Assembly: GCF_014646875.1 (NCBI RefSeq)
Contig: NZ_BMOC01000003.1
Location: forward strand, 1-64,000
DNA from: Halobellus salinus
Lineage (GTDB): Archaea > Halobacteriota > Halobacteria > Halobacteriales > Haloferacaceae
Direction: 5' to 3'
Length of the DNA stretch: 64,000 nt
In this document: piece by piece, positions 35,668 through 64,000 of the stretch
Layout of the letters: each line of letters begins with the position of its first letter
How positions within the stretch are numbered: position 1 is the first letter of the stretch
Notes under the pieces: model-generated
Database searches by the model: none
The model's input: only the letters and a program-made list of their open reading frames with translations
Told to the model about the DNA's origin: nothing
Position numbers and translations under genes: made by a program

Positions 35668-36903
35668 TCACTCCGCCTCGATCGAATACCCCCGGATCCC
35701 GTTCCCGCCGAGGATCAGTACGTCGTCGGAAACCGCGATATCGGAGCCGTTCACCGGCTTTGTCGACCGGTGTAACCGCGTTCCGTCGGCACGGTCGTAC
35801 GCTGTGACTCCCGTCTCCTCGTCGGCGACCCACACGCGGAGCCCTGACGTATCGATCGCGCCGACGGAGCCGTCGATTCGGATATTCCACACCGATTCGC
35901 CGGTCGAGCGGTCGAACGCGTACACGCGTCCGGCCTCCGTCCCGACCGTGACCAGGGAGTTGTCGACCACCGGGCCGGCCGTGGCGGTTCCGTCGAACGT
36001 CTCCGACCACTCGCGGCCGTTCGTTCCGAGCGGATACGCATTGAGGCTGGATCCGTCTTCGGGGCCGCTCCGCTGGACGCTAAAGAGTGTATCCCCGTGT
36101 ATCTGCCCGCGGCTCGCTGCGAACGACCGACTCACAGGCCACGACTCCTCGACGCGAGCCAGCGAGCCGGTGTCGGGGTCGAGAACCCGAACCCCTTGGT
36201 ACCCCAGCCCCACGTACACCGCTCCCGCGTATTCGCCGACGTACGTGACGAACCCGGCCGGCAGGGTCGGCGTTTCGGTTCGCCACTGTTCTTCGCCACT
36301 CTCGGCGTCGAGTCCGACAACGAGCGGTTCCTGCTCACGTCTCGCTCCGTAACTGCTCGCGGCGACGACGACGGTCCCGTCAACGGTTGTGGCCCCCGCC
36401 GCAGTGTTGTGTTTCCCGTCCGCGGGAGCACCGAACGCCCACAGCTTCTCGCCGGTCGCCTCGTCGAAGGTGTGGAAGTGGCTCCCGAGCGTGTCGCTAT
36501 CCTCGGGATCCGGCCGATAGCCGAAGGTGACGTACTGTTCGTCGACCGCGAACGCGTCCGCCCCAAGGTTGGACTCGAACCCGTCGTACGTCGTCTCCTG
36601 TTCCCATTTGACGCCGCTGCCGTGACTCGCCCTCCCCGCCCCATTGAAGTCGTTGAAGTAGATCGAGCCGCCCGCCGTCCAGGCGAAGTCAACGCCCGGA
36701 TCCCCGACCCAGTTTTCCGTCAGCGTCACCGCACCCGCCGACCCCTCGCCCGCCGTCGTCCCCGTCGACTGGCGCTCCGTTGTTGTCGCCGTCTCGGGGG
36801 CCGATGTCGTCTCGTTGCCCTCGTCCGTGAGTCGCAGACACCCACTCGTTCCCCCGAGTCCGACTCCGGCCCCGACTGTCGCCAGCAACTGGCGGCGGTT
36901 CAT
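35668..36903 (-). CDS. PQQ-type beta-propeller lipoprotein, Tat-exported
   Basis: A 411-residue protein starting MNRRQLLATVGAGVGLGGTS with lipobox Cys22 in SGCLRL. A Thr/Glu-rich linker runs to about 60. Propeller repeats follow: GEKLWAF, VVGLDAESGEEQWRT, VYAFDRSTGESVWNI, VTAYDRADGTRLHR (the PQQ enzyme-like YxxDxxTGxxxW pattern). No catalytic residues for a quinoprotein dehydrogenase are evident, so a binding or scaffold role is likely. Divergent from a related gene with 84 nt between them. Confidence 0.88.
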   Translation of the reverse strand: MNRRQLLATVGAGVGLGGTSGCLRLTDEGNETTSAPETATTTERQSTGTTAGEGSAGAVTLTENWVGDPGVDFAWTAGGSIYFNDFNGAGRASHGSGVKWEQETTYDGFESNLGADAFAVDEQYVTFGYRPDPEDSDTLGSHFHTFDEATGEKLWAFGAPADGKHNTAAGATTVDGTVVVAASSYGARREQEPLVVGLDAESGEEQWRTETPTLPAGFVTYVGEYAGAVYVGLGYQGVRVLDPDTGSLARVEESWPVSRSFAASRGQIHGDTLFSVQRSGPEDGSSLNAYPLGTNGREWSETFDGTATAGPVVDNSLVTVGTEAGRVYAFDRSTGESVWNIRIDGSVGAIDTSGLRVWVADEETGVTAYDRADGTRLHRSTKPVNGSDIAVSDDVLILGGNGIRGYSIEAE

Positions 36904-36987: not shown

Positions 36988-38226
36988 ATGACGAGAGAAC
37001 CAACCTGGTCCCGCCGGAGCCTACTGCGCGGGAGTGCTGGCGTCGGAGTTGTCGCGACCGCGGGGTGTCTCCGACTCACCGACGGGTCGACGGGGACACC
37101 GACGGACGGACAGGGCGGCACGGAGGCGGGCGGACAGGCCGGGTCGGCGACGACTGGTTCGACAGAAGCGGCGCCGACGGACGCCCCCGGCGGATCCACG
37201 ACAGCCGGATCCGCCTCCGAGATCGAACTCGTCCCGGCCTGGTCGGGGTCGAGCAGCGCGGTGGCGGCCGCCGCCGGCAATTTCTTTTTCCGGCCGTCGT
37301 TCACCCGCCTCAGGCGAGTCCGCCCCGACGGAACGGCCGTCTTCGAGGCCGAGGTTGCGGACGGGTACCTCCTCTCGATCAGGACGTTCCGGAACGGCTT
37401 GTACGCCGACGACACGGGCGTGTACGTCGGTTCGAGGGCCCGAGACGAGGTCGATACCGGTGGGAGAGTGTACGCACTCGATCCCGAGACCGGCGAGGAA
37501 CGCTGGATGCACGAGGAGCCGGGGGACGGACTGCACAACGAGACCTTGGCGGTGACGGTGACCGACGGGACCGTGATCTTCGCGAGTCAGAGCAGCGGCA
37601 GCGGCGACGAACAGGAGCCGATCGTCCGCGGCGTCGACACCGAGAGCGGCGAGGAGCGGTGGCGGATCCAGTTCTCGGAGGGGTTCATCAACGGGATCGT
37701 CGCCCGCGGTGACCGACTGTTCGTCCAGCAGACGTTCGGGCTGTCGATATACCGGCTCTCGACGCGGGAACTGCTCGAAGAACGACGATTGACGGCGGGG
37801 TTCAGCCAGTTCGCCGCCGCCGACGGGACGCTCTTCGTTCCCGGCGAGACGGTTCGCGCGTTGACGCTCCCCGCCGGCGACGAGCGCTGGTCGGTCTCCA
37901 CGGGTCGGTCGGTGAACACGGGCGTCGGCGTCGGCGAAACCGGCGTGTTCGTCGGCACGGAGAGCGGATTCGTGCTGGGGTACGGTCGGGAGACCGGCGA
38001 CGCGTTGTGGGAGAGCCGCGTCGACGGCGTCGTCGAACACCCGCCGGTCGTCGCGGACGGCGTCGTCTGGATCGCGAGCGAGCGCGGCGACCTCTCGGCG
38101 TTCGCCGAGGCGACCGGCGAACTGCTCTACGAGGAGGAGATCGCCCCGGGGTTCGAGTTCACGGTCCTGGATGGGATCCTCAACGACGACGAGCGCGACA
38201 CCGCCTACGAGATCCGCCGAGGCTGA
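36988..38226 (+). CDS. PQQ-type beta-propeller lipoprotein, Tat-exported
   Basis: A 412-residue protein with Tat motif SRRSLLRGSAGVG and lipobox Cys in TAGCLRLTDG, the same CLRLTD start as its divergent neighbour. A long Gly/Thr/Ser linker runs to about 75. Propeller repeats are VYALDPETGEERWMH, VRGVDTESGEERWRI, VLGYGRETGDALWES and LSAFAEATGELLYEE. The pair most likely arose by duplication; both would be anchored outside the membrane. Its last codons begin a 22-bp tandem repeat. Confidence 0.88.
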   Translation: MTREPTWSRRSLLRGSAGVGVVATAGCLRLTDGSTGTPTDGQGGTEAGGQAGSATTGSTEAAPTDAPGGSTTAGSASEIELVPAWSGSSSAVAAAAGNFFFRPSFTRLRRVRPDGTAVFEAEVADGYLLSIRTFRNGLYADDTGVYVGSRARDEVDTGGRVYALDPETGEERWMHEEPGDGLHNETLAVTVTDGTVIFASQSSGSGDEQEPIVRGVDTESGEERWRIQFSEGFINGIVARGDRLFVQQTFGLSIYRLSTRELLEERRLTAGFSQFAAADGTLFVPGETVRALTLPAGDERWSVSTGRSVNTGVGVGETGVFVGTESGFVLGYGRETGDALWESRVDGVVEHPPVVADGVVWIASERGDLSAFAEATGELLYEEEIAPGFEFTVLDGILNDDERDTAYEIRRG

Positions 38227-52921: not shown

Positions 52922-53281
52922 ACGTCTGACTCCGCACCCCCGAATATAAATACTGAGGTCGAACCACCGACGCCGACGCTGACCTCCGTGCCGCCTACCC
53001 CCGGCCTCGTTTTCTCGTAGCCGAAAGACGGTGACAGCCACCGCCGGTGGGTTAGCGGCGAGTATCCGGTCGGTTCTCAGTCGCACTCGGGGTGGTATAA
53101 CAAGCGTACGAGTGTCATATCATCTGGACGAATCGGGAGGGAACTCCCAGCAATCGGTCGCTGTTCGGGTTCACCACACGTGTTCGTCTCGGATCGGCTT
53201 TTTTCTATGCCGAAAGAGGGGCTGCTTGAATGCGAACGGTTAAGCGACAGTGCGTGTTTCGGTCGGAGTAGAAACCGACGA
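52922..53281. promoter_or_regulatory. Divergent region between SDR and IclR genes
   Basis: A 360-nt gap. TATAAATA (52945-52952, TATTTATA on the minus strand) is the SDR promoter. GGTATAACAAG (53094-53104) and GGTTAAGCG (53239-53247) are candidate boxes for the IclR gene. Two GCCGAAAGA words occur (53022, 53208). No coding frame is supported. Confidence 0.5.
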
Positions 53282-54046
53282 ATGCCACGAAACGACGAAC
53301 CCGGGATCAAGTCGGCCGGTCGATCTTTCGGCATCCTCGAAACCCTCATCGAGGCCGAACGGTGTACGGTCTCGGAGCTGACAGCCCAGACACCCTACAC
53401 CGTCAGTACCGTCTACGAGCACCTGGCGACGCTCCGGGAGCTCGGGTACGTCCTGAAAGAAGACGACAAGACCTACCGGCCGAGCGCGACGCTCCTCCGG
53501 CTGGGAGCCCAGACCAGGCGGGCCAGAGTCCCAGAGCGTCCAGTGCGGTCAACGGTGTCGAACCTGGCGGAACGGACGAAACAGGTGGTGTGGTTCACGG
53601 TCGCCGAACGCACGATTGCCGTGAATCTGTACAAGTCCGTGGGCACCGAGGGGATCCAGACGTTCGGCCGCGAGGGCAAGGAGGTCCACCTCCACTGTTC
53701 GGCCGCCGGAAAAGCCATGCTGGCGGTGCTCCCGGACGACCGCATTGACGCGGTTGTCGCCGAACGTGGGCTACCCGCCTACACCGACCACACGACCACG
53801 GATGCGGAGGCGCTCCGGGCCGAACTCGACACCGTCCGCGAGCGGGGGTTCGCCCGGTGTGACTGCGAAACCGTCGAGAACGTCCGTGCGGTGGGGGCTG
53901 CGGTGGCTATCGACGACGACACCGTGGGGGCGATCACCGTTGGGGGACCCCAGAGCAGGCTTCAGGGCGACTACTACGAGTCGGAGCTTCCGCAGTTGGT
54001 TGTCGAACACGCGAACGAACTGGAACTCCGGCTCAAATACCAGTGA
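53282..54046 (+). CDS. IclR-family transcriptional regulator
   Basis: A 254-residue regulator starting MPRNDEPGIKSAGRSFGILE. The N-terminal winged helix (about 10-75) contains CTVSELTAQTPYTVSTVYEH and LATLRELGYVLKED. The C-terminal effector-binding domain (about 85-250) has VHLHCSAAGKAMLAVLPDDR and RGFARCDCETVENVRAVGAA. It probably controls the flanking SDR genes; such regulators usually respond to a catabolic substrate. Confidence 0.92.
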   Translation: MPRNDEPGIKSAGRSFGILETLIEAERCTVSELTAQTPYTVSTVYEHLATLRELGYVLKEDDKTYRPSATLLRLGAQTRRARVPERPVRSTVSNLAERTKQVVWFTVAERTIAVNLYKSVGTEGIQTFGREGKEVHLHCSAAGKAMLAVLPDDRIDAVVAERGLPAYTDHTTTDAEALRAELDTVRERGFARCDCETVENVRAVGAAVAIDDDTVGAITVGGPQSRLQGDYYESELPQLVVEHANELELRLKYQ

Positions 54047-54954: not shown

Positions 54955-56691
54955 ATGCTAGACGTCACCGACCGGCAGACGGAACGAACGCTCCGTGAGC
55001 GCGTTGACCCCGCCGAGCTCAACCGCCACGTCGACGCCCTTGAAGGGCTAACGCGGGTCTCGGGATCCGCCGACGAGCGGCGGGCCGCGACGTACGTCGT
55101 CGACACGCTCCGGGAGTACGGCGTCGACGCGACTTTGCACGAGTACGAGACGCTGGTGAGCGTCCCCGAGAGCGCGTCGGTGACGGTGACGGCGCCGGAC
55201 CGTCGACCGGTTGACGCCATCACGGTCTCTTTCGGGGCGAGCACCCCTGACTCGGGCGTCAGTGGCCCGGTGGTCACGCGCGACCGGCTCAACGACGCCG
55301 ACGGCGGTCAAGCGCCGGCCGAGGGGAAGATCCTGCTCGCGGAGGGCCTTCCGCGCCCCACAGTCGTCCAGGAGGCGGCGGCGGCGGGGGCGGAAGCCCT
55401 GGTGTGTCAGTCCCCCTCGGAGCACCTGTATCAGGGGATCGTCACCCCGGTTTGGGGGACGCCGAGCCGAGCGACCGCCGACCGGCTTCCGAACCTTCCG
55501 GTGGTTGAGGTCACCGCGACCGACGGTGCGTGGCTCCGCGAGCAGGTGGCGGCGGGCCCGGTCGAACTCACGGTCGCAACCGACGTTCGGACCGAGTTGG
55601 CGACGCTGCCGTGTCCCGTCGGCCGGATCCACGGCCGGGAGAGCGACCGGTTCCTGTTGATCGGCAACCACATCGACTCGTGGTTCGAGGGAATGACCGA
55701 CAACGCGACCGCGGTAGCGGCAACGCTTGAGGTGGCTCGGGTGCTGTCGACCCGGGACCGCCCCCTCCGGCGGGGCGTGCGGTTCGGGTTCTGGCCGGCC
55801 CACTCCACCGGCCGGTACGCGGGCAGCGCCCGGTACGCCGACGACAACTGGCTCGACCTCCGCGACAACGGGCTGGCGTACCTCCACCTCGACCTGCTCG
55901 GGTTGCAGGGGGCGGACACGCTCTGGTACCAGCACATGGCAGAGCTCGGCGACGAACACCTCGACGCGATGGCGGCGGCGACAGATCTCGGCGTCGGCGA
56001 CGGTGCGGAGAGTTACCTTGGCGGGGATCGTCCCGCCCGGAACTCCGATCAGTCCTTCTGGGGGACCGGGTTGAGCTCGCTTCTCTCGGGCGCCCGACTC
56101 CCTCCGGAGACCGACCACGGCGGGCCGATCGGCGGAGGGTGGTGGTGGCACACCTCAGAGGACACCCGCGACAAGGTCGATATCGACGTGTTAGCCGCTG
56201 AGACGCGGCTGTATCTCACGCTGGCGGCCCGGATCTGTGAGTCGCCTGTTCCACCACACGACTTCCGGGCGGCGGTTGCGGACGTCCGGGCGGTGCTCGA
56301 CGAAATCGGGTCGACGGCCGGAGACGCGGTCACATTTGCCGACGAGTACGACTCCTTGGAGGCGCTCCGGACGGCGCTCGACGACGCGACCCGACTCATC
56401 GAGGCTCGTGTCGGGGACCAGGCCGTCGCAGCCGACGCGGAGGACCTCCAGGTTCGGCTCTCGAACCTGCTCACACCCGCGCTGTACACCGACGACGAAC
56501 CGTACGAGCAGGAGCCCGCAGCCCCACACGACCGGCTCCCGTCGCTCCGGGTGGCCGAGGACATCCCGGACCTGACCGGGCGCGAGCGCCGGTTCGCGGA
56601 GGCGTCGTTGCGGCGGGGCCGCAACCGGCTGTTGCACGCGCTCGACCGCGCGACACGGGTGGTCGAATCGTTCGTGTCCCGCCACGAGTGA
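54955..56691 (+). CDS. M28-family metallopeptidase-like protein with PA domain
   Basis: A 578-residue protein. An N-terminal peptidase half (RVSGSADERRAATYVVDTLR) is interrupted by a PA-like domain (about 90-190). The metal blocks GNHIDSWFEGMTDNATA (H, D) and WWWHTSEDTRDKVD (final His) are present. The usual catalytic Glu-Glu is replaced by PAHSTGRYAGSARYAD, a variant I recall in some M28 relatives. A helical C-terminal region follows. No signal peptide, so cytosolic. It may hydrolyse an imported peptide or amide. Confidence 0.83.
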   Translation: MLDVTDRQTERTLRERVDPAELNRHVDALEGLTRVSGSADERRAATYVVDTLREYGVDATLHEYETLVSVPESASVTVTAPDRRPVDAITVSFGASTPDSGVSGPVVTRDRLNDADGGQAPAEGKILLAEGLPRPTVVQEAAAAGAEALVCQSPSEHLYQGIVTPVWGTPSRATADRLPNLPVVEVTATDGAWLREQVAAGPVELTVATDVRTELATLPCPVGRIHGRESDRFLLIGNHIDSWFEGMTDNATAVAATLEVARVLSTRDRPLRRGVRFGFWPAHSTGRYAGSARYADDNWLDLRDNGLAYLHLDLLGLQGADTLWYQHMAELGDEHLDAMAAATDLGVGDGAESYLGGDRPARNSDQSFWGTGLSSLLSGARLPPETDHGGPIGGGWWWHTSEDTRDKVDIDVLAAETRLYLTLAARICESPVPPHDFRAAVADVRAVLDEIGSTAGDAVTFADEYDSLEALRTALDDATRLIEARVGDQAVAADAEDLQVRLSNLLTPALYTDDEPYEQEPAAPHDRLPSLRVAEDIPDLTGRERRFAEASLRRGRNRLLHALDRATRVVESFVSRHE

Positions 56692-56743: not shown

Positions 56744-58363
56744 CTACGCGTTCGGCGCGGCTGATTCGGCGAGGTACTCCGCGACGCCGTGCTGGATGAC
56801 CTCGATGGGGCCGACGACGCAGTCCCGGCGGAGTTCGGGAAATTCGTCGTCCAGTACCGCCGTGAGCTCCGCCTCCAGGGATCCGACGTCGTCGACCCGA
56901 CGACCCTGGAGGTACTCCGAGAGCAGGCTCGCCACCGCGGTGCTCACCGCACAGCTCTCGCTTTTGTACTCCACCCCGTCGATCCGGCCGGCGGCGTCGA
57001 CGGAGACGGCGAACTCCCCGTCGTCGCCGCAGCTCGTCTCGTCGGCGGCGACGACGAACGAATGCGACCCCGGAACGCCGCCGTCGCGCGGGCGCTCGAA
57101 GTGGTCGACGATGCGGTCGTGGTAGTTTTCCCGGACGTGTGCGTCCCGTTTCGGCTCCGCGTCCTCGATGGCGTCGAGCAGCCGGTCGATCTCCGCGGTG
57201 GTGTTGTAAACGTAGAACGAGGCCCGGACCGACCCCGGCACGTCGAGCACGTCGTGCAGCGGCTGGGTGCAGTGATCCCCGGCGCGGACCGCGATCCCGC
57301 GGTCGTTCAGAATCGACGAGAGGTCGTGGCCGTGGACGTCTCCCACGTTGAACGACACGAGCCCCGCCCGGTCGACGCCCGGCGGTGGGCCGTACGTCTC
57401 GACGTTCGGGCGGGCTTCGAGCCGTTCGAGGGCGTACTGTGCGAGTTCGTTCTCGTGGGCCTGGATCGTTTCCATCCCGATCTCTTCGAGGTAGTCGACT
57501 GCCGCCGCGAGCGCGATCCCCTCGGCGATCGGCGGGGTCCCCGCCTCGAACTTCCACGGCAGTTCGTTCCACGACGACTCCGAGAGGGTAACGTTCTGTA
57601 TCATCTCCCCGCCGAAGAGAAACGGTGGCAACTCCTCGAGGAGGTGTGCGCTGCCGTACAGCACTCCGATCCCGGTCGGGCCGGCCATCTTGTGGCCGGA
57701 GAACGCGAGGAAGTCGGCGTCGAGCGCCGAGACGTCCACCGGGCGGTTGGGAACCGACTGGGCGCCGTCGACGAGCACGGAGGCGTCGTGGTCGTGAGCG
57801 AGCGCCGCCAGTTCCGCAACGGGGTTGACCGTCCCCAGCACGTTCGAGACGTGAACGACCGACAGCAGCGCCGTGCTGTCGTCGATGACCGCTCGGGCGT
57901 GGTCCATGTCCAAGTGGCCGTTGTCGGTGACACGGATGAACTCGATCCCGGCACCGGTCCGCTCGGCGATCTGTTGCCACGTGACCAGCGAGGCGTGGTG
58001 CTCCATCTCGGTTGTGACGATTGTAGCGTCCTCGTCGAGCACGGTCTCTCCCAGTGAGTGTGCGACGATGTTGATCGCCTCCGTGGTGTTCTTGGTGAAC
58101 ACGATCTCCTCGCGACCGGCGGCACCGACGAACGCCGCGACCCGGTCGTGGGCCCGCTCGTACGCCATCGACGCCTCGTGGCTCAGCGTGTGGATCCCGC
58201 GGTGAACGTTGGCGTTGTACCGCCGGTAGAACTCGTCGTGTGCCTCTCGCACCTGTGCGGGCGTCTGCGTTGTTGCCGCGTTGTCCAGATAGACCAACGG
58301 GTGGCCGTCGACGTCCCGACCCAGAACCGGGTAGTCGCCTCTCGGCGCTGCTGGGGAATCCAT
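56744..58363 (-). CDS. Cysteine desulfurase fused to a SufU/IscU-like scaffold
   Basis: A 539-residue fusion. Residues about 1-405 are SufS: YLDNAATTQTPAQVREAHDE, TEMEHHASLVTWQQIAERTG, PLP-lysine block FSGHKMAGPTGIGVLY, and persulfide Cys in RAGDHCTQPLHDVL. Residues about 410-539 are SufU-like: YHDRIVDHFERPRDGG, Cys in TSCGDDGEF, YKSESCAVSTAVASLLSEYL and RRDCVVGPI, the three zinc-ligand cysteines. It would mobilise cysteine sulfur and pass it within one chain. Divergent from the transporter. Confidence 0.9.
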   Translation of the reverse strand: MDSPAAPRGDYPVLGRDVDGHPLVYLDNAATTQTPAQVREAHDEFYRRYNANVHRGIHTLSHEASMAYERAHDRVAAFVGAAGREEIVFTKNTTEAINIVAHSLGETVLDEDATIVTTEMEHHASLVTWQQIAERTGAGIEFIRVTDNGHLDMDHARAVIDDSTALLSVVHVSNVLGTVNPVAELAALAHDHDASVLVDGAQSVPNRPVDVSALDADFLAFSGHKMAGPTGIGVLYGSAHLLEELPPFLFGGEMIQNVTLSESSWNELPWKFEAGTPPIAEGIALAAAVDYLEEIGMETIQAHENELAQYALERLEARPNVETYGPPPGVDRAGLVSFNVGDVHGHDLSSILNDRGIAVRAGDHCTQPLHDVLDVPGSVRASFYVYNTTAEIDRLLDAIEDAEPKRDAHVRENYHDRIVDHFERPRDGGVPGSHSFVVAADETSCGDDGEFAVSVDAAGRIDGVEYKSESCAVSTAVASLLSEYLQGRRVDDVGSLEAELTAVLDDEFPELRRDCVVGPIEVIQHGVAEYLAESAAPNA

Positions 58364-58471: not shown

Positions 58472-60199
58472 ATGGATACTTCACGGCGACGGTTCCTGCG
58501 CCGGACTGCCGGCCTGAGCGCGATCGGGCTGTCGGGGTTGGCGGGTTGTACAGGGGGCGACGGTGGCGGGTCGACTGGGACTTCTTCGGGGTCGACCGGG
58601 GGGAGTACCGATACGCCGGAGAAACAGACGGCCTCGGACGAGCGCGTTGTCACGGGCTCGGAACTGGACGAGTTCGAGCGGGTGGAAATCGAGATCCAGA
58701 GCTACACCCGGAGCCTCCTGCCGCAGCGCTACGAGTGGACGTTCCTCTTCCGGGACCAGTGGGTCGAGAAGCTGGGGGTCGACGCGAACGTGACAATCGG
58801 CGAGGTCAACAAGATCTTCGGCAACTGGGTCGACGTCAACTACGACGTGAACATGGCCGGGTGGTCGGGGAAGCCCTCGCGGATCGACCCGACGACGTTC
58901 CTGAACGCGTTCACCACGGACGGCGGGCTGTATACGCCGAACTACACCAACCCCGATTACGACGACCTCGTCGGCGAGTTCCAGCGTGAGACCGACCGCG
59001 ACCGCCGGCAGGAACTCGCCTACGAGGCACAGCAGATCCTCGCGGAGGATCAGCCGGTGGTGTTCCTGTTCGCCGCCGACGCCCTGACCGCGACCAACAC
59101 CGACAACTGGTCGAACTACACCAACCAGATCGGCGACCAGAACTTCACGCAGGTCTGGAATCTACAGAGCATGACGCCCACCGGGGACGTCCAGGCGGCG
59201 GTGAAAGCCGGTAACCTGTTCCCCGCCACCCTTAATCCGATGGCGCCGACGAAAAGCGGCGACCTGATGGGGCTGAAGATGGTGTACGACCGACTGATCC
59301 GGCTCGGCCCGAAGGGACAGCCACAGCCGTGGGCTGCCACCGACTGGGACGCGGTCGACCCCCAGACGGTCGACGTCACCCTCCGCGAGGGGATGACCTG
59401 GCACGACGGCGAGGCCGTCACCCCCGAGGACGTCAAGTTCACCATCGAATACCTCCAGGAGTGGAAGGTCCCGTACATGCAGTCGTTCTACACCGACATC
59501 GAGTCGGTGGAGGTCACCGGCTCGAACGGCGTCCGGTTCACCCTCTCACAGCCGCGAGCGTCGTTCATTGGCGTCGACCTCTCGCTGTTGTTTATCATGC
59601 CCCAACACATCTGGGACGGACTGCCCGAGCGGGAGGGGCTCGAACACCCCCGCGAGTACCAGGACACCGAGTACATCGGCAGCGGGCCGTTCACCGTCCA
59701 GGACTTCAGCCAGTCGGACCGCGTCGTGTGGCAGGTCTACGACGACCACTTCGCGGATTTCGACATCAACGCGTTCATCTGGAGCAAGTATGGCGGCAAA
59801 GCCGCCGCGCTGGGCGACGTCGAGTCCGGCGACGCGTCGTTCGTCGAGTCGCTGCAGGCCTCCCAGTACAACCGCGTGAAAGGCCAAAGCGGGATCGGCG
59901 CCGAAAACGTCAGCCAGCACGGCTGGAAAGCCATCTACATGAACAACGACCGGCGGCCGTTCAGCGACAAGCAGTTCCGGATCGCGGCGTCGCACGCCAC
60001 CGACCGCGAACGCGCCGCGGAGATCGTCTACGACGGACTGGCCGACATCCAGAACGGACCGATCGCCCCGGCCAACGAGTTCTGGCACAACCCCGACCTT
60101 CCGACCTACGACGGCGGCGCCGGAGAGGCCCGCGATATCCTCTTTGCGGCCGGCTACCGCTGGGACGAGGACGGGAACCTCCTGATGCCCAAAGAGTGA
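58472..60199 (+). CDS. Peptide-type ABC solute-binding lipoprotein, apparently permuted
   Basis: A 575-residue Tat lipoprotein: SRRRFLRRTAGLS and lipobox Cys26 in GLAGC, then a Gly/Ser/Thr linker. The fold order is odd. Residues about 75-215 (SRIDPTTFLNAFTT, NPDYDDLVGEFQRETDRDRR) read as the usual C-terminal lobe of DppA-type proteins. Residues 250-575 (FPATLNPMAPTKSGD, VTLREGMTWHDGEAVTPEDV, YIGSGPFTVQDF) read as the usual N-terminal lobe and middle, ending in GYRWDEDGNLL. First gene of the transporter operon. Confidence 0.88.
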   Translation: MDTSRRRFLRRTAGLSAIGLSGLAGCTGGDGGGSTGTSSGSTGGSTDTPEKQTASDERVVTGSELDEFERVEIEIQSYTRSLLPQRYEWTFLFRDQWVEKLGVDANVTIGEVNKIFGNWVDVNYDVNMAGWSGKPSRIDPTTFLNAFTTDGGLYTPNYTNPDYDDLVGEFQRETDRDRRQELAYEAQQILAEDQPVVFLFAADALTATNTDNWSNYTNQIGDQNFTQVWNLQSMTPTGDVQAAVKAGNLFPATLNPMAPTKSGDLMGLKMVYDRLIRLGPKGQPQPWAATDWDAVDPQTVDVTLREGMTWHDGEAVTPEDVKFTIEYLQEWKVPYMQSFYTDIESVEVTGSNGVRFTLSQPRASFIGVDLSLLFIMPQHIWDGLPEREGLEHPREYQDTEYIGSGPFTVQDFSQSDRVVWQVYDDHFADFDINAFIWSKYGGKAAALGDVESGDASFVESLQASQYNRVKGQSGIGAENVSQHGWKAIYMNNDRRPFSDKQFRIAASHATDRERAAEIVYDGLADIQNGPIAPANEFWHNPDLPTYDGGAGEARDILFAAGYRWDEDGNLLMPKE

Positions 60200-60211: not shown

Positions 60212-61198
60212 ATGAATCAGGAGCGCCTCCGCTACTTGCTCAAGCGGGCTGGCCTCTCGCTGTTTTCGCTGTGGGTAGTCGCGACCGCGCTGTTTTTCGC
60301 GTTCCGGTTGCTTCCGGGGGATCCGACCACGTCGGTCATCGCCCCCCAGATGTCGGCGTCGGCGCGGGCGGAACTGGCGTCGCAGTACGGGCTGAACGAA
60401 CCGCTTTCCGTCCAGTACCTGCTGTACATGGAGAACCTGCTCACCGGGAACCTCGGCGTCTCGTTCCAGTTCAACCAGCCGGTGTCGTCGCTGATTGTCC
60501 CGAAACTGGTCAACACCCTCGCACTGACCGCGACGGCGGTCATCCTGGCGTACCTCATCGGGAGTCTCGTCGGCGCGTATCTGGCGTCCCGCCGGGACAC
60601 GAGCGTCGACATCTACGGCACCGCCGTGGTGTTGATGATGTACGCCGCGCCGGTGTTCTGGACCGGGCTGCTGGCGATCATGGTGTTTTCGTTCCGGCTG
60701 GACTGGGTGCCGTCCGGCGGGATCCACAGCGTGACGTTCGTCGCCGACTCCTTTTGGGGCGGGTACTTGTCGGTCGACTTCCTGCACCACTTGGTGTTGC
60801 CTCTAGTGGTCACCACGCTGTACTTCCTGAGTGTGCCCGCGCTCACGATGCGGAACAATATGATCGACACGCTCGACGAGGACTTCATCCAACTGTCGCG
60901 GGCCGCCGGGCTGTCAGATTTCTCGATCCTCTACCGCCACGCCGCTCGCAACGCCTTGCTCCCGGTGCTCCACTACGCCGCGGTGTCGCTCGGGTTCGCC
61001 TTCGGCGGCTCCGTGGTCATCGAGACGGTGTTCTCGTGGCCGGGGCTGGGCCAGATGATGTTCAACGCGACCTTGGCGCAGGACTTTCCGCTCGCACAGA
61101 GCACGTTCTTCCTGCTCGCAGCCATCATCATCTTTATGAATTTCCTCGCCGACGCGCTGTCGGTGTACGTCGACCCACGCACGAGCGCAACGGAGTGA
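60212..61198 (+). CDS. Peptide-type ABC transporter permease (DppB-like)
   Basis: A 328-residue membrane permease, 12 nt after the binding protein. Starts MNQERLRYLLKRAGLSLFSL; the DppB N-terminal helix is followed by FRLLPGDPTTSVIAP. About six membrane segments are present, and the EAA-like loop LSRAAGLSDFSILYRHAARN contacts the ATPase. It forms the channel with the next permease. Confidence 0.93.
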   Translation: MNQERLRYLLKRAGLSLFSLWVVATALFFAFRLLPGDPTTSVIAPQMSASARAELASQYGLNEPLSVQYLLYMENLLTGNLGVSFQFNQPVSSLIVPKLVNTLALTATAVILAYLIGSLVGAYLASRRDTSVDIYGTAVVLMMYAAPVFWTGLLAIMVFSFRLDWVPSGGIHSVTFVADSFWGGYLSVDFLHHLVLPLVVTTLYFLSVPALTMRNNMIDTLDEDFIQLSRAAGLSDFSILYRHAARNALLPVLHYAAVSLGFAFGGSVVIETVFSWPGLGQMMFNATLAQDFPLAQSTFFLLAAIIIFMNFLADALSVYVDPRTSATE

Positions 61199-61202
61199 AT
61201 AT

Positions 61203-62129
61203 ATGAGCTCAAACACACTACCGATCGAACTCTCGCAGACCCGGCGTGCGACCCTCCGGCGGTACCGACGGGTGGCTACCACCCTCCTTGATGAGTTCCG
61301 CGCTCAACGGTCCGCGGTGCTCGCCGCGGGCGTGCTCGGGTTCTTCGTCTTTTTGGGGGTGTTTGCCCCACTGATCGCGCCGTACGATCCGACGCGGGAG
61401 TTCGTGATCAACGGCCAGGCACAGCGGCTGCTCGAACCGTCGCTAAAACACCCCTTCGGCACCACGGCACTGTCCCGCGACGTCTTCAGCCAGTGGGTGT
61501 ACGGGTCCCGCGTCTCCCTGATCGTCGGCCTCGTTTCGGGGCTCGCAGTGATGGCCATCGGGACGAGCGTCGGTGTGGTCGCAGGCTACTACAAGGGGAA
61601 CGTCGATCTGGTGTTGATGCGGGTCGTCGACACGCTGTATGGGGTGCCAGCGACGCCGTTCATCCTGCTTTTGGTGCTGTTTTTCGGCACCTCGCTCACG
61701 AACATCGTCCTCGCGATGGTGTTCATCCTCTGGCGGACGATGGCGCGGGTGGTGCGTTCGGAGACGCTGTCGCTGGCCGAGCGGCCGTTCGTGAAGGCCG
61801 CGCGCGCGACCGGTGCGAGCGATTTCCGGATCATCACGGTCCACATCCTGCCGAACCTGCTTCCGCTCATCATGATCGAAACCACCATCATCATCGCGTT
61901 CTCGATCACGCTGGAGGCCGGGATCTCGTTCCTGGGACTCGGAGCCACCGACGTGACGAGCTGGGGGACGATGCTCGAACTGACCTTCTCCTCGGGCGCC
62001 ATCCGGTCGGCGTGGTGGTGGGTGCTGCCGCCCGGGATCAGCATCACGCTGTTGGTGCTTTCGTTTTTCTACCTCTCGCGGGTGGTTGAGGGGATCACGA
62101 GCCCCGACAGCGGGAGGTTCGAGCTGTGA
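61203..62129 (+). CDS. Peptide-type ABC transporter permease (DppC-like)
   Basis: A 308-residue permease with N-terminal helix AAGVLGFFVFLGVFAPLIAP and the DppC block HPFGTTALSRDVFSQWVYGS. The EAA loop is FVKAARATGASDFRIITVHI. Its end overlaps the next start by GTGA (62126-62129), so it is coupled to the ATPase. Confidence 0.94.
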   Translation: MSSNTLPIELSQTRRATLRRYRRVATTLLDEFRAQRSAVLAAGVLGFFVFLGVFAPLIAPYDPTREFVINGQAQRLLEPSLKHPFGTTALSRDVFSQWVYGSRVSLIVGLVSGLAVMAIGTSVGVVAGYYKGNVDLVLMRVVDTLYGVPATPFILLLVLFFGTSLTNIVLAMVFILWRTMARVVRSETLSLAERPFVKAARATGASDFRIITVHILPNLLPLIMIETTIIIAFSITLEAGISFLGLGATDVTSWGTMLELTFSSGAIRSAWWWVLPPGISITLLVLSFFYLSRVVEGITSPDSGRFEL

Positions 62130-63139
62130 GCCTGCTCGAACTCCGTGACGTCTCGACCGAATACGAGACCGACGACGGGCCGCTTCGGGCGGTCGAGTCG
62201 GTCGACATGGAGCTCGAAGCCGGGGAGATCCTGGGAATCGTCGGCGAGAGCGGGTGCGGGAAGACGACCCTCATGAAGACCATCCTGAACCTGCTCCCCG
62301 GGAACGGACGAGTGGTCGGCGGCGAGATCGAGTTCGACGGGCGCGACCTCACGCAGCTGTCGAAGTCGGAGTGGCAGTCGGTTCGGTGGGCGGAGATATC
62401 CTACATCATCCAGAACGCTATGAACGCCCTGGATCCGGTGTACACGGTCGGCGCGCAGTTCGTGGAGATCATCCGCGCCCACACCGACGACTCGAAGGCC
62501 GAAGCCCGGACCAGGGCGGGCGACATGCTCGAGAAGGTCGGGATCGGCCGGGGTCGCCTCAACGACTACCCACACGAGCTGTCGGGCGGGCAGCGCCAGC
62601 GGGTTGTGGTCGCGCTGGCGCTGGCGCTCGAGCCGCCGCTGATCGTGGCCGACGAGCCCACCACTGGGCTGGACGTCGTGACCCAAGAGGAGATCCTCAC
62701 GCTCATCCAGGACATGCAGTCGGAGTTGGGGAGTGCGATGATCATCATCACCCACGACATCAGCGTGGTCGCCGAGGTGGCGGACCGCACCGGCGTGATG
62801 TACGGCGGACAGTTGGTCGAGGTCGGCGACACGGTCGACGTGTTCAACAACAGCGCCCACCCCTACACGATGGGGCTGACCAACGCGTTCCCCTCACTCG
62901 CCGACAACCCGGAGCGACTGGTCAGCATCCCCGGGACGCCGCCGGACCTCGTCACCCCGCCGGAGGGGTGCCGGTTCGCCGAACGGTGTCCCTTCGAGAC
63001 CGAAGCGTGTGCCCGGGAGCCGCCGGTCGAAGGGGTCGGGGACCGCCACACGGCCCGGTGTCACTACACCGACCAGGCGGCGAGGTTCCGCGAGGAGAGC
63101 AGTCGCGAGGACACTTGGACCGAGGGGGCCGACCGATGA
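62126..63139 (+). CDS. Peptide-type ABC transporter ATPase (DppD-like)
   Basis: A 337-residue ATPase, GTG start overlapping dppC. Walker A GESGCGKTTLMKTIL, signature LSGGQRQRVVVALALAL, Walker B VADEPTTGLDV. The C-terminal oligopeptide motif GCRFAERCPFETEACAREPP with clustered cysteines is typical of Dpp/Opp ATPases and may hold an iron-sulfur cluster in relatives. Overlaps the next gene by ATGA. Confidence 0.94.
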   Translation: MSLLELRDVSTEYETDDGPLRAVESVDMELEAGEILGIVGESGCGKTTLMKTILNLLPGNGRVVGGEIEFDGRDLTQLSKSEWQSVRWAEISYIIQNAMNALDPVYTVGAQFVEIIRAHTDDSKAEARTRAGDMLEKVGIGRGRLNDYPHELSGGQRQRVVVALALALEPPLIVADEPTTGLDVVTQEEILTLIQDMQSELGSAMIIITHDISVVAEVADRTGVMYGGQLVEVGDTVDVFNNSAHPYTMGLTNAFPSLADNPERLVSIPGTPPDLVTPPEGCRFAERCPFETEACAREPPVEGVGDRHTARCHYTDQAARFREESSREDTWTEGADR

Positions 63140-64000
63140 GCGCCGAGCCGCTGTTCCGGGTCCGAGACCTCCGGAAGTACTACCCGGTGCGGGACGACGA
63201 TGGCCTGTTCAACCTGAACTTCCTGGGGGAGCCGAAGTCTCTCAAGGCCGTGGACGACGTCTCCTTCGAGATCAACCGCGGGGAGATCGTGGGCGTGGCG
63301 GGCCAGTCGGGGTGCGGGAAGTCCACGCTCGGAGAGCTGCTCGTGTTGCTCCAGCAAGCCACCGGCGGCGACATCCAGTTCCGGGGCACGAGCGTCAGCG
63401 ACTACTCCAAGGCCGAACGGAAGGCGTTCCGCCGGGAGTGTCAGATCGTGTTCCAGGACCCGTACGAGTCGCTGAACCCTCGGTTTACCGTGTCGCAGAC
63501 GGTCAAAGAGCCGCTCGTCGTGCACGGAATCGGCGACGCAGTCAAACGCGACGAGCGGGTCCGGGAGGCGCTCTCGGACGCGGGGCTCTCGCCGCCGGAG
63601 GCGTACCTCGACAAACTCCCGGCGGAGCTCTCCGGCGGGGAGCGCCAGCGAGTCAGCATCGCACGGGCGCTGGTGGTCGACCCGCTGTTTCTGGTGGCTG
63701 ACGAGCCGGTGTCGATGCTGGACGTCAGCATCCGTACGGAGATCCTCCACCTGTTCGAAGACCTCCAGAAGAAGCGGGACCTGACGATGATGTACATCTC
63801 TCACGACCTCTCGACGATCAACTACCTCGCCGACCGGACGATGATCATGTACCTCGGCGACGTGGTGGAGTTGGGGCCAACCCGGTCGGTGATCCGGGAT
63901 CCGGCCCACCCCTACACCGAGGCGTTGCTCGAGTCGGTGCCGATGGCCGACCCCGAGCAGGGCCGGGTGGGGACCGAGCGGACCGCGAGCGACATCCGGG
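63136..64000 (+). CDS. Peptide-type ABC transporter ATPase (DppF-like), runs off the window
   Basis: Partial; 288 residues read to the end without a stop. MSAEPLFRVRDLRKYYPVRD, Walker A GQSGCGKSTLGELL, signature LSGGERQRVSIARALVV, Walker B VADEPVSMLDVS, then DPAHPYTEALLESVPMADPE, the Dpp-type tail start. It completes a five-gene importer with the two permeases, DppD-like ATPase and binding protein. The amino-terminal insert GLFNLNFLGEPKSLKAV is typical of this subfamily. Confidence 0.93.
   Translation, partial: MSAEPLFRVRDLRKYYPVRDDDGLFNLNFLGEPKSLKAVDDVSFEINRGEIVGVAGQSGCGKSTLGELLVLLQQATGGDIQFRGTSVSDYSKAERKAFRRECQIVFQDPYESLNPRFTVSQTVKEPLVVHGIGDAVKRDERVREALSDAGLSPPEAYLDKLPAELSGGERQRVSIARALVVDPLFLVADEPVSMLDVSIRTEILHLFEDLQKKRDLTMMYISHDLSTINYLADRTMIMYLGDVVELGPTRSVIRDPAHPYTEALLESVPMADPEQGRVGTERTASDIR

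Follow-up and report, generated by a model that had tools for sequence, protein, structure and literature searches.

Introduction

DppA, OppA, NikA and AppA are substrate-binding proteins (SBPs) of cluster C (family 5; Pfam PF00496), whose systems share an operon plan with two permeases and two ATPases. Both natural termini of cluster C proteins lie in lobe 1, within domain I (PMC11192437). In AliD, domain I comprises residues 29-63, 191-296 and 583-617, and lobe 2 corresponds to domain III, residues 297-582 (PMC11192437). The dipeptide in DppA is clamped through R383 and D436 (PMC12136057). Among the binding proteins of ABC importers, a naturally occurring circular permutation has been described for TpMglB-2 of Treponema pallidum, a glucose-binding protein for which the class 'Type Ic / Cluster Bc' was proposed (PMC4990184). 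This protein has a type I, cluster B fold, in which N-lobe strands have been moved and a fourth cross-over added, and its authors remark that binding proteins are tethered in most of the organisms that have homologs (PMC4990184). A literature search covering few subscription journals found no paper on permuted binding proteins of cluster C. OpuAC of Lactococcus was considered as a further rearranged SBP and dropped, since its paper does not speak of it in such terms. As a rule, circular permutants found in nature go back to a single ancient event and are seen between distant relatives.

Here, we analyse an SBP gene in a 64,000-nucleotide stretch of the Halobellus salinus genome (contig NZ_BMOC01000003.1, positions 1 to 64,000; the window), for which a circularly permuted peptide-binding protein had been proposed from the DNA letters. 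Its product shares both segments with DppA, OppA, NikA and AppA, and its operon follows the same plan, but the order of the segments is rotated and the new termini lie in domain III. Permuted binding proteins are already known from cluster B; here, close relatives repeatedly carry one gene in both the rotated and the unrotated form. TpMglB-2 represents one protein and its homologs (PMC4990184), unlike the haloarchaeal SBPs with their repeated independent events in orthologous operons.

Results

Gene and segment layout

The SBP gene is an intact open reading frame at 58472-60199 on the forward strand, encoding 575 residues from an ATG at 58472 to a stop at 60197-60199; an in-frame GTG lies 27 bases 5' of the ATG. 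After the tether, the chain consists of two swapped segments homologous to family 5 (cluster C) and nothing else (Table 1). The junction that joins them has a median length of 25 residues in permuted relatives. The original prediction placed the normally first blocks from residue 250 and ended the chain at GYRWDEDGNLL. Its order of blocks holds, but the N-lobe block begins at residue 251 and the chain ends in ...GYRWDEDGNLLMPKE.

Table 1. Features of the SBP locus, with positions in the window
Feature	Position	Strand	Basis or remark
IclR-type regulator	53249..54046	+	recurrent neighbour of such operons
M28 family metallopeptidase	54955..56691	+	possible functional partner of the SBP
Twin-arginine signal peptide with lipobox end (SRRRFL ... 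LAGC, Cys26)	58472..58549	+	read from sequence
Flexible Gly/Ser/Thr-rich tether, residues 27-70	58550..58681	+	read from sequence; weakly conserved
C-lobe (second half of domain III) and canonical C-terminal segment, residues 71-231, now first	58682..59164	+	HMM (residues 80-231 = canonical columns 360-510); NCBIfam and PDB matches
Junction from old C-terminus to old N-terminus, residues 232-250	59165..59221	+	unmatched stretch between the two HMM matches
N-lobe and first half of domain III, residues 251-568	59222..60175	+	canonical columns 37-348 (HMM, Pfam, PDB)
Final seven residues and stop; new C-terminus in domain III loop	60176..60199	+	sequence, HMM, DppA alignment
Permease, DppB/OppB type	60212..61198	+	BPD_transp_1
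Permease, DppC/OppC type	61203..62129	+	BPD_transp_1, OppC_N
ATPase, DppD/OppD type	62126..63139	+	ABC_tran, oligo_HPY
Second ATPase, DppF/OppF type, continuing past the window end	63136..64000	+	open frame with ATPase motifs; start estimated

Evidence for the rotation

Two family profiles matched the protein in the reverse of their usual order. Pfam SBP_bac_5 (PF00496) aligned residues 283-569 with profile positions 1-285 of 368 (177.5 bits against a cut-off of 32.4), and NCBIfam OppA aligned residues 97-200 with positions 408-509 of 543. The PDB search matched the same chains twice, with the order swapped; in AppA (1xoc), chain residues 81-353 corresponded to query residues 299-572 and chain residues 382-490 to query residues 96-203. 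The best solved structures match in this rotated sense only, and the protein departs from the canonical N-to-C segment order of the PF00496 family.

As a reference profile, we used a 512-column HMM from 28 normal-order haloarchaeal SBPs. On the native chain, columns 360-510 fell at residues 80-231 and were followed by columns 37-348 at residues 251-568 (258.4 bits in total), so both lobes are covered. Rotating the chain in silico at residue 222-250 gave a single domain spanning columns 37-510 with 267-270 bits (269.6 with the first segment moved to the end) against the native 258.4, whereas control rotations at other positions still gave two pieces and scored below the correct rotation. The rotated chain is fully collinear with the profile, and no core segment has been lost or gained. 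A profile of 17 permuted relatives matched more than 100 solved cluster C chains, the best ones in two stretches; for AppA (1xoc), profile positions 175-509 lay at chain residues 17-351 and positions 8-167 at chain residues 359-512. The rotation is thus complete and leaves a gap of ~7 residues at the break. On E. coli DppA, the break maps after ...KALLKEAGLE and before FSIDLWA (precursor residues ~369-373), within domain III. An AlphaFold2 model built from three sequences only, those of the window protein and two Halorussus orthologs, had a pLDDT of 33, too low to be informative.

The rotation of the segments and the position of the breakpoint are established. The earlier reading of rotation rather than loss is borne out by the swapped PDB and HMM matches and by the single full-length match after rotation. 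As its refuting case it had named an N-terminal region that forms a domain of its own, with a normal C-lobe after it. Only seven residues remain beyond residue 568, which leaves no room for a normal C-lobe at the chain end, and the sequence excludes a separate domain preceding a normal SBP. Fusion or a chance order of motifs as the source of the swapped segments is ruled out by the PDB, HMM and permuted-profile matches.

Distribution of the permuted family

The original prediction had called for a search for haloarchaeal proteins of the same order. The permuted family comprises at least 108 relatives with a common breakpoint, spread across Halobacteria and alphaproteobacterial plasmids. Full-length homologs, mostly of 28-40% identity, were found in many genera and in most haloarchaeal families among the 391 Halobacteria genomes searched; as they are collinear with the window protein over their full length, they are equally permuted. 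The breakpoint is common to the 85 members checked (HMM column 345-355 / 341-380), with 108 members in the enlarged clade, and the rotation is conserved among relatives. Orthologs at 67-71% identity occur in Halorussus litoreus and H. halobius. Halobellus salinus itself carries a second permuted SBP on contig C16; of the five family 5 SBPs in this genome, two thus have the permuted order. Among the matches listed from Halobacteriota outside Halobacteria, query coverage was of the N-lobe segment only, that is, the normal order, and the five SBPs retrieved from this group (L335-L339) are all of normal order. Viral contigs scanned for further relatives of the permuted SBP yielded none.

Permuted homologs with operons are also present on alphaproteobacterial plasmids (Nitratireductor, Ketogulonicigenium, Maritalea, Roseomonas, Neorhizobium and Microvirga). 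They branch at several places within the haloarchaeal permuted clade, and these scattered placements suggest that the permuted SBP was transferred from Archaea to Bacteria more than once. Their signal peptides, read from sequence, are of the ordinary non-lipid kind. On annotated plasmids, the permuted SBPs are labelled plainly as 'ABC transporter substrate-binding protein', and the Pfam SBP_bac_5 model covers only part of permuted SBPs (profile 1-286 of 368).

Independent origins of the permuted order

For the trees, permuted chains were rotated to normal order and then aligned to the profile. The window protein's family, lineage A, forms one clade (FastTree support 0.998, and 0.907 in a larger tree), whose sister group consists of L149 and the non-haloarchaeal L335-L339, all of which have the normal chain order, unlike lineage A. 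In two further haloarchaeal groups, lineage B (L207 and L274 types) and lineage C (L216 type), permuted and normal proteins are intermixed. The permuted order has independent origins: a 74-row tree needs three order changes (bootstrap 5-95% range 3-3), and a single clade of all permuted rows, hence one origin for all permuted SBPs, is rejected (AU p = 2e-54). Seven changes are needed in a 261-row tree, and six in a tree of lineages B and C alone, four of them forced by well supported branches. Within lineage B a single permuted clade is rejected (AU p = 3e-5); within lineage C it is not (AU p = 0.07). Trees built from each segment alone agree that the two forms interleave: the N-part tree requires 8 order changes and the C-part tree 6, of which 4 and 3 are forced by supported branches, and in both of them permuted L267 pairs with normal L280. 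In most of lineage C, the break lies about 20 residues upstream of the A and B breaks, and the helix before the loop is N-terminal, whereas it is C-terminal in A and B.

L216, L284-L287 and L299-L301 make up a separate subfamily with the break about 20 residues upstream, in which the helix AEELIQQG is kept at the new N-terminus. Another permuted SBP of lineage C, L298 (G163:C5:148975-162586), is encoded by two open reading frames in different frames (query 1-205 and 219-546), either through a frameshift or as a real split at the lobe junction.

Operon partners and close pairs

The SBP gene is the first of a Dpp/Opp-type operon with two permeases and two ATPases, and the second ATPase gene is present in nearly all related operons. 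Permuted and normal SBPs of lineages B and C both lead the same five-gene operon (SBP-B-C-ATP-ATP), with DppB-type permeases up to 86% (lineage B) and 70% (lineage C) identical between permuted and normal operons; the partners are orthologous in the two forms. In the closest comparison, permuted L274 and normal L280 share 72.7% identity in both SBP halves, 81% in the signal peptide, 86% in DppB and 89% in DppC, and they overlap by five residues at the break; junctions in lineage B pairs are near-seamless. The DppB-type permease of L274 is nearest to those of normal operons. Conservation of the partners implies that the rotated SBP would work with the same transporter as the normal form. In L303, L304 and L305, the permuted SBP operon adjoins a second SBP operon in divergent, back-to-back arrangement; this second SBP is of normal order where the order is clear.

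Tether and substrate

The original prediction also held that the lipid anchor shifts relative to the lobes. This follows by homology: since the canonical termini are in lobe 1 and the break is in domain III, that is, lobe 2, the lipid tether would be attached to lobe 2 instead of lobe 1. The position of the tether is not the whole reason for the permutation, as alphaproteobacterial permuted SBPs have no lipid signal. Two adjacent divergent lipoproteins with PQQ-propeller-like sequence lie elsewhere in the window, at 35668-36903 (-) and 37000-38226 (+).

From its family and partners, the protein would capture a small substrate and deliver it to Dpp/Opp-type permeases. A peptide substrate, as first proposed, is suggested by family membership only. 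Against the NCBIfam DppA equivalog the protein scores 49.8 bits, below the 1005 required, and of the DppA clamp sites only R383 aligns with an Arg. The Asp of DppA that grips the peptide amine, D436, aligns with a Lys; what the protein binds may therefore be something other than a free peptide amine.

M28 genes also neighbour the permuted SBP in Halorussus and certain other haloarchaea, as well as in several alphaproteobacteria, where hydantoinase/oxoprolinase and IclR genes join them. Candidate substrates of the permuted SBP are peptide-like compounds and cyclic amides; with M28 genes in 12 of 91 long loci, this lead fits a subset only. The shared loci suggest that a catabolic module with M28 was transferred between Archaea and Alphaproteobacteria. 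M28 genes stand beside permuted SBP operons in the window and in L012, L013, L076, L090, L095, L119, L218, L220, L221 and L224. Between the M28 gene and the SBP operon of the window, a 539-residue open reading frame on the reverse strand (56744-58363) encodes a class V aminotransferase (cysteine desulfurase, SufS-like) fused to a NifU_N/SufU-like scaffold domain.

Discussion

We consider it very probable that the protein is a genuine and working lipoprotein: a cluster C SBP of a Dpp/Opp-type ABC importer that became circularly permuted in nature. A short linker would have connected its former N- and C-termini, which are adjacent in domain I of lobe 1, and the chain would have been reopened in domain III (lobe 2), at a surface loop that separates the helix AxxLLxxAGY from the first strand of the domain's second half. 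The Venus-flytrap fold would form as before, with the two lobes closed by ligand; docking on DppB/C-type permeases would be as usual, and the lipid tether would pull on lobe 2. For a single draft genome, the default suspicion is an artefact: a misassembly, two broken SBP genes fused by a frameshift, or motifs that stand in this order by chance. Such an artefact can be practically dismissed: the same breakpoint recurs in about 100 loci of many genomes, some of these loci lying on complete plasmids with RefSeq proteins, the Halorussus orthologs are 67-71% identical, and the gene is one open frame with a conserved signal peptide. The many independent genomes refute misassembly.

Circular permutations arise through duplication or through fission and fusion. 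The permuted order arose repeatedly in Halobacteria through in-place rotation of the gene, probably by a tandem duplication from which the outer parts were then lost. Lineage A has also spread into alphaproteobacteria. A short overlap at the break, as in L274/L280, is the residue expected from tandem duplication and trimming; since no tandem-duplicated intermediate was seen among the SBP loci examined, we infer this route. It would be possible in principle for halves to be exchanged, and a few permutations followed by homologous exchange of halves with normal genes could have scrambled the trees of lineages B and C. The uneven supports within both lineages and the AU result for lineage C agree with such exchange, which could also inflate the event counts within lineage B. 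We nevertheless regard it as an unlikely account of the whole, because the N-part and C-part trees agree on L267 and L280 and each force several changes, because A, B and C are deeply different and most of lineage C breaks elsewhere, and because the permease of L274 is closest to those of normal operons. On balance, we lean towards a labile chain order in the family 5 SBPs of Halobacteria, with at least five switches, each located near a single surface region of domain III, in operons that are orthologous and kept the same permeases, by recurrent in-place permutation that possibly ran in both directions.

Why recurrent permutation should occur is evenly poised between neutrality and all other readings. 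Adjacent termini and a tolerant loop would make rotation harmless, and haloarchaeal genome fluidity would make it frequent, with function unchanged; the similarity of partners and operons in both forms and the alphaproteobacterial form without a lipid anchor speak for this. Lineage A has kept its order over very long times, and, among the matches listed, archaea of the phylum outside Halobacteria showed the normal form and not the permuted one; both facts seem to count against neutrality but are compatible with it. Adaptation, in which moving the tether from lobe 1 to lobe 2 alters seating on the S-layer-covered membrane or on the permeases, appears rather doubtful. It would account for recurrence at nearly one site and for the retention of tether and lipobox in those haloarchaeal members that were inspected, but structural tolerance also predicts one-site recurrence, and bacterial members without lipidation exist.

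Conclusions

In ABC importers of the Dpp/Opp class, the order of the segments is not fixed, and neither, by homology, is the position of the tether. One gene occurs repeatedly in permuted and unpermuted versions, at 73% identity and with near-identical partners, so that the route of permutation, the tolerance to it and its consequence can be tested directly. Several separate swaps at nearly the same spot indicate that chain order in this large protein family is evolutionarily flexible.
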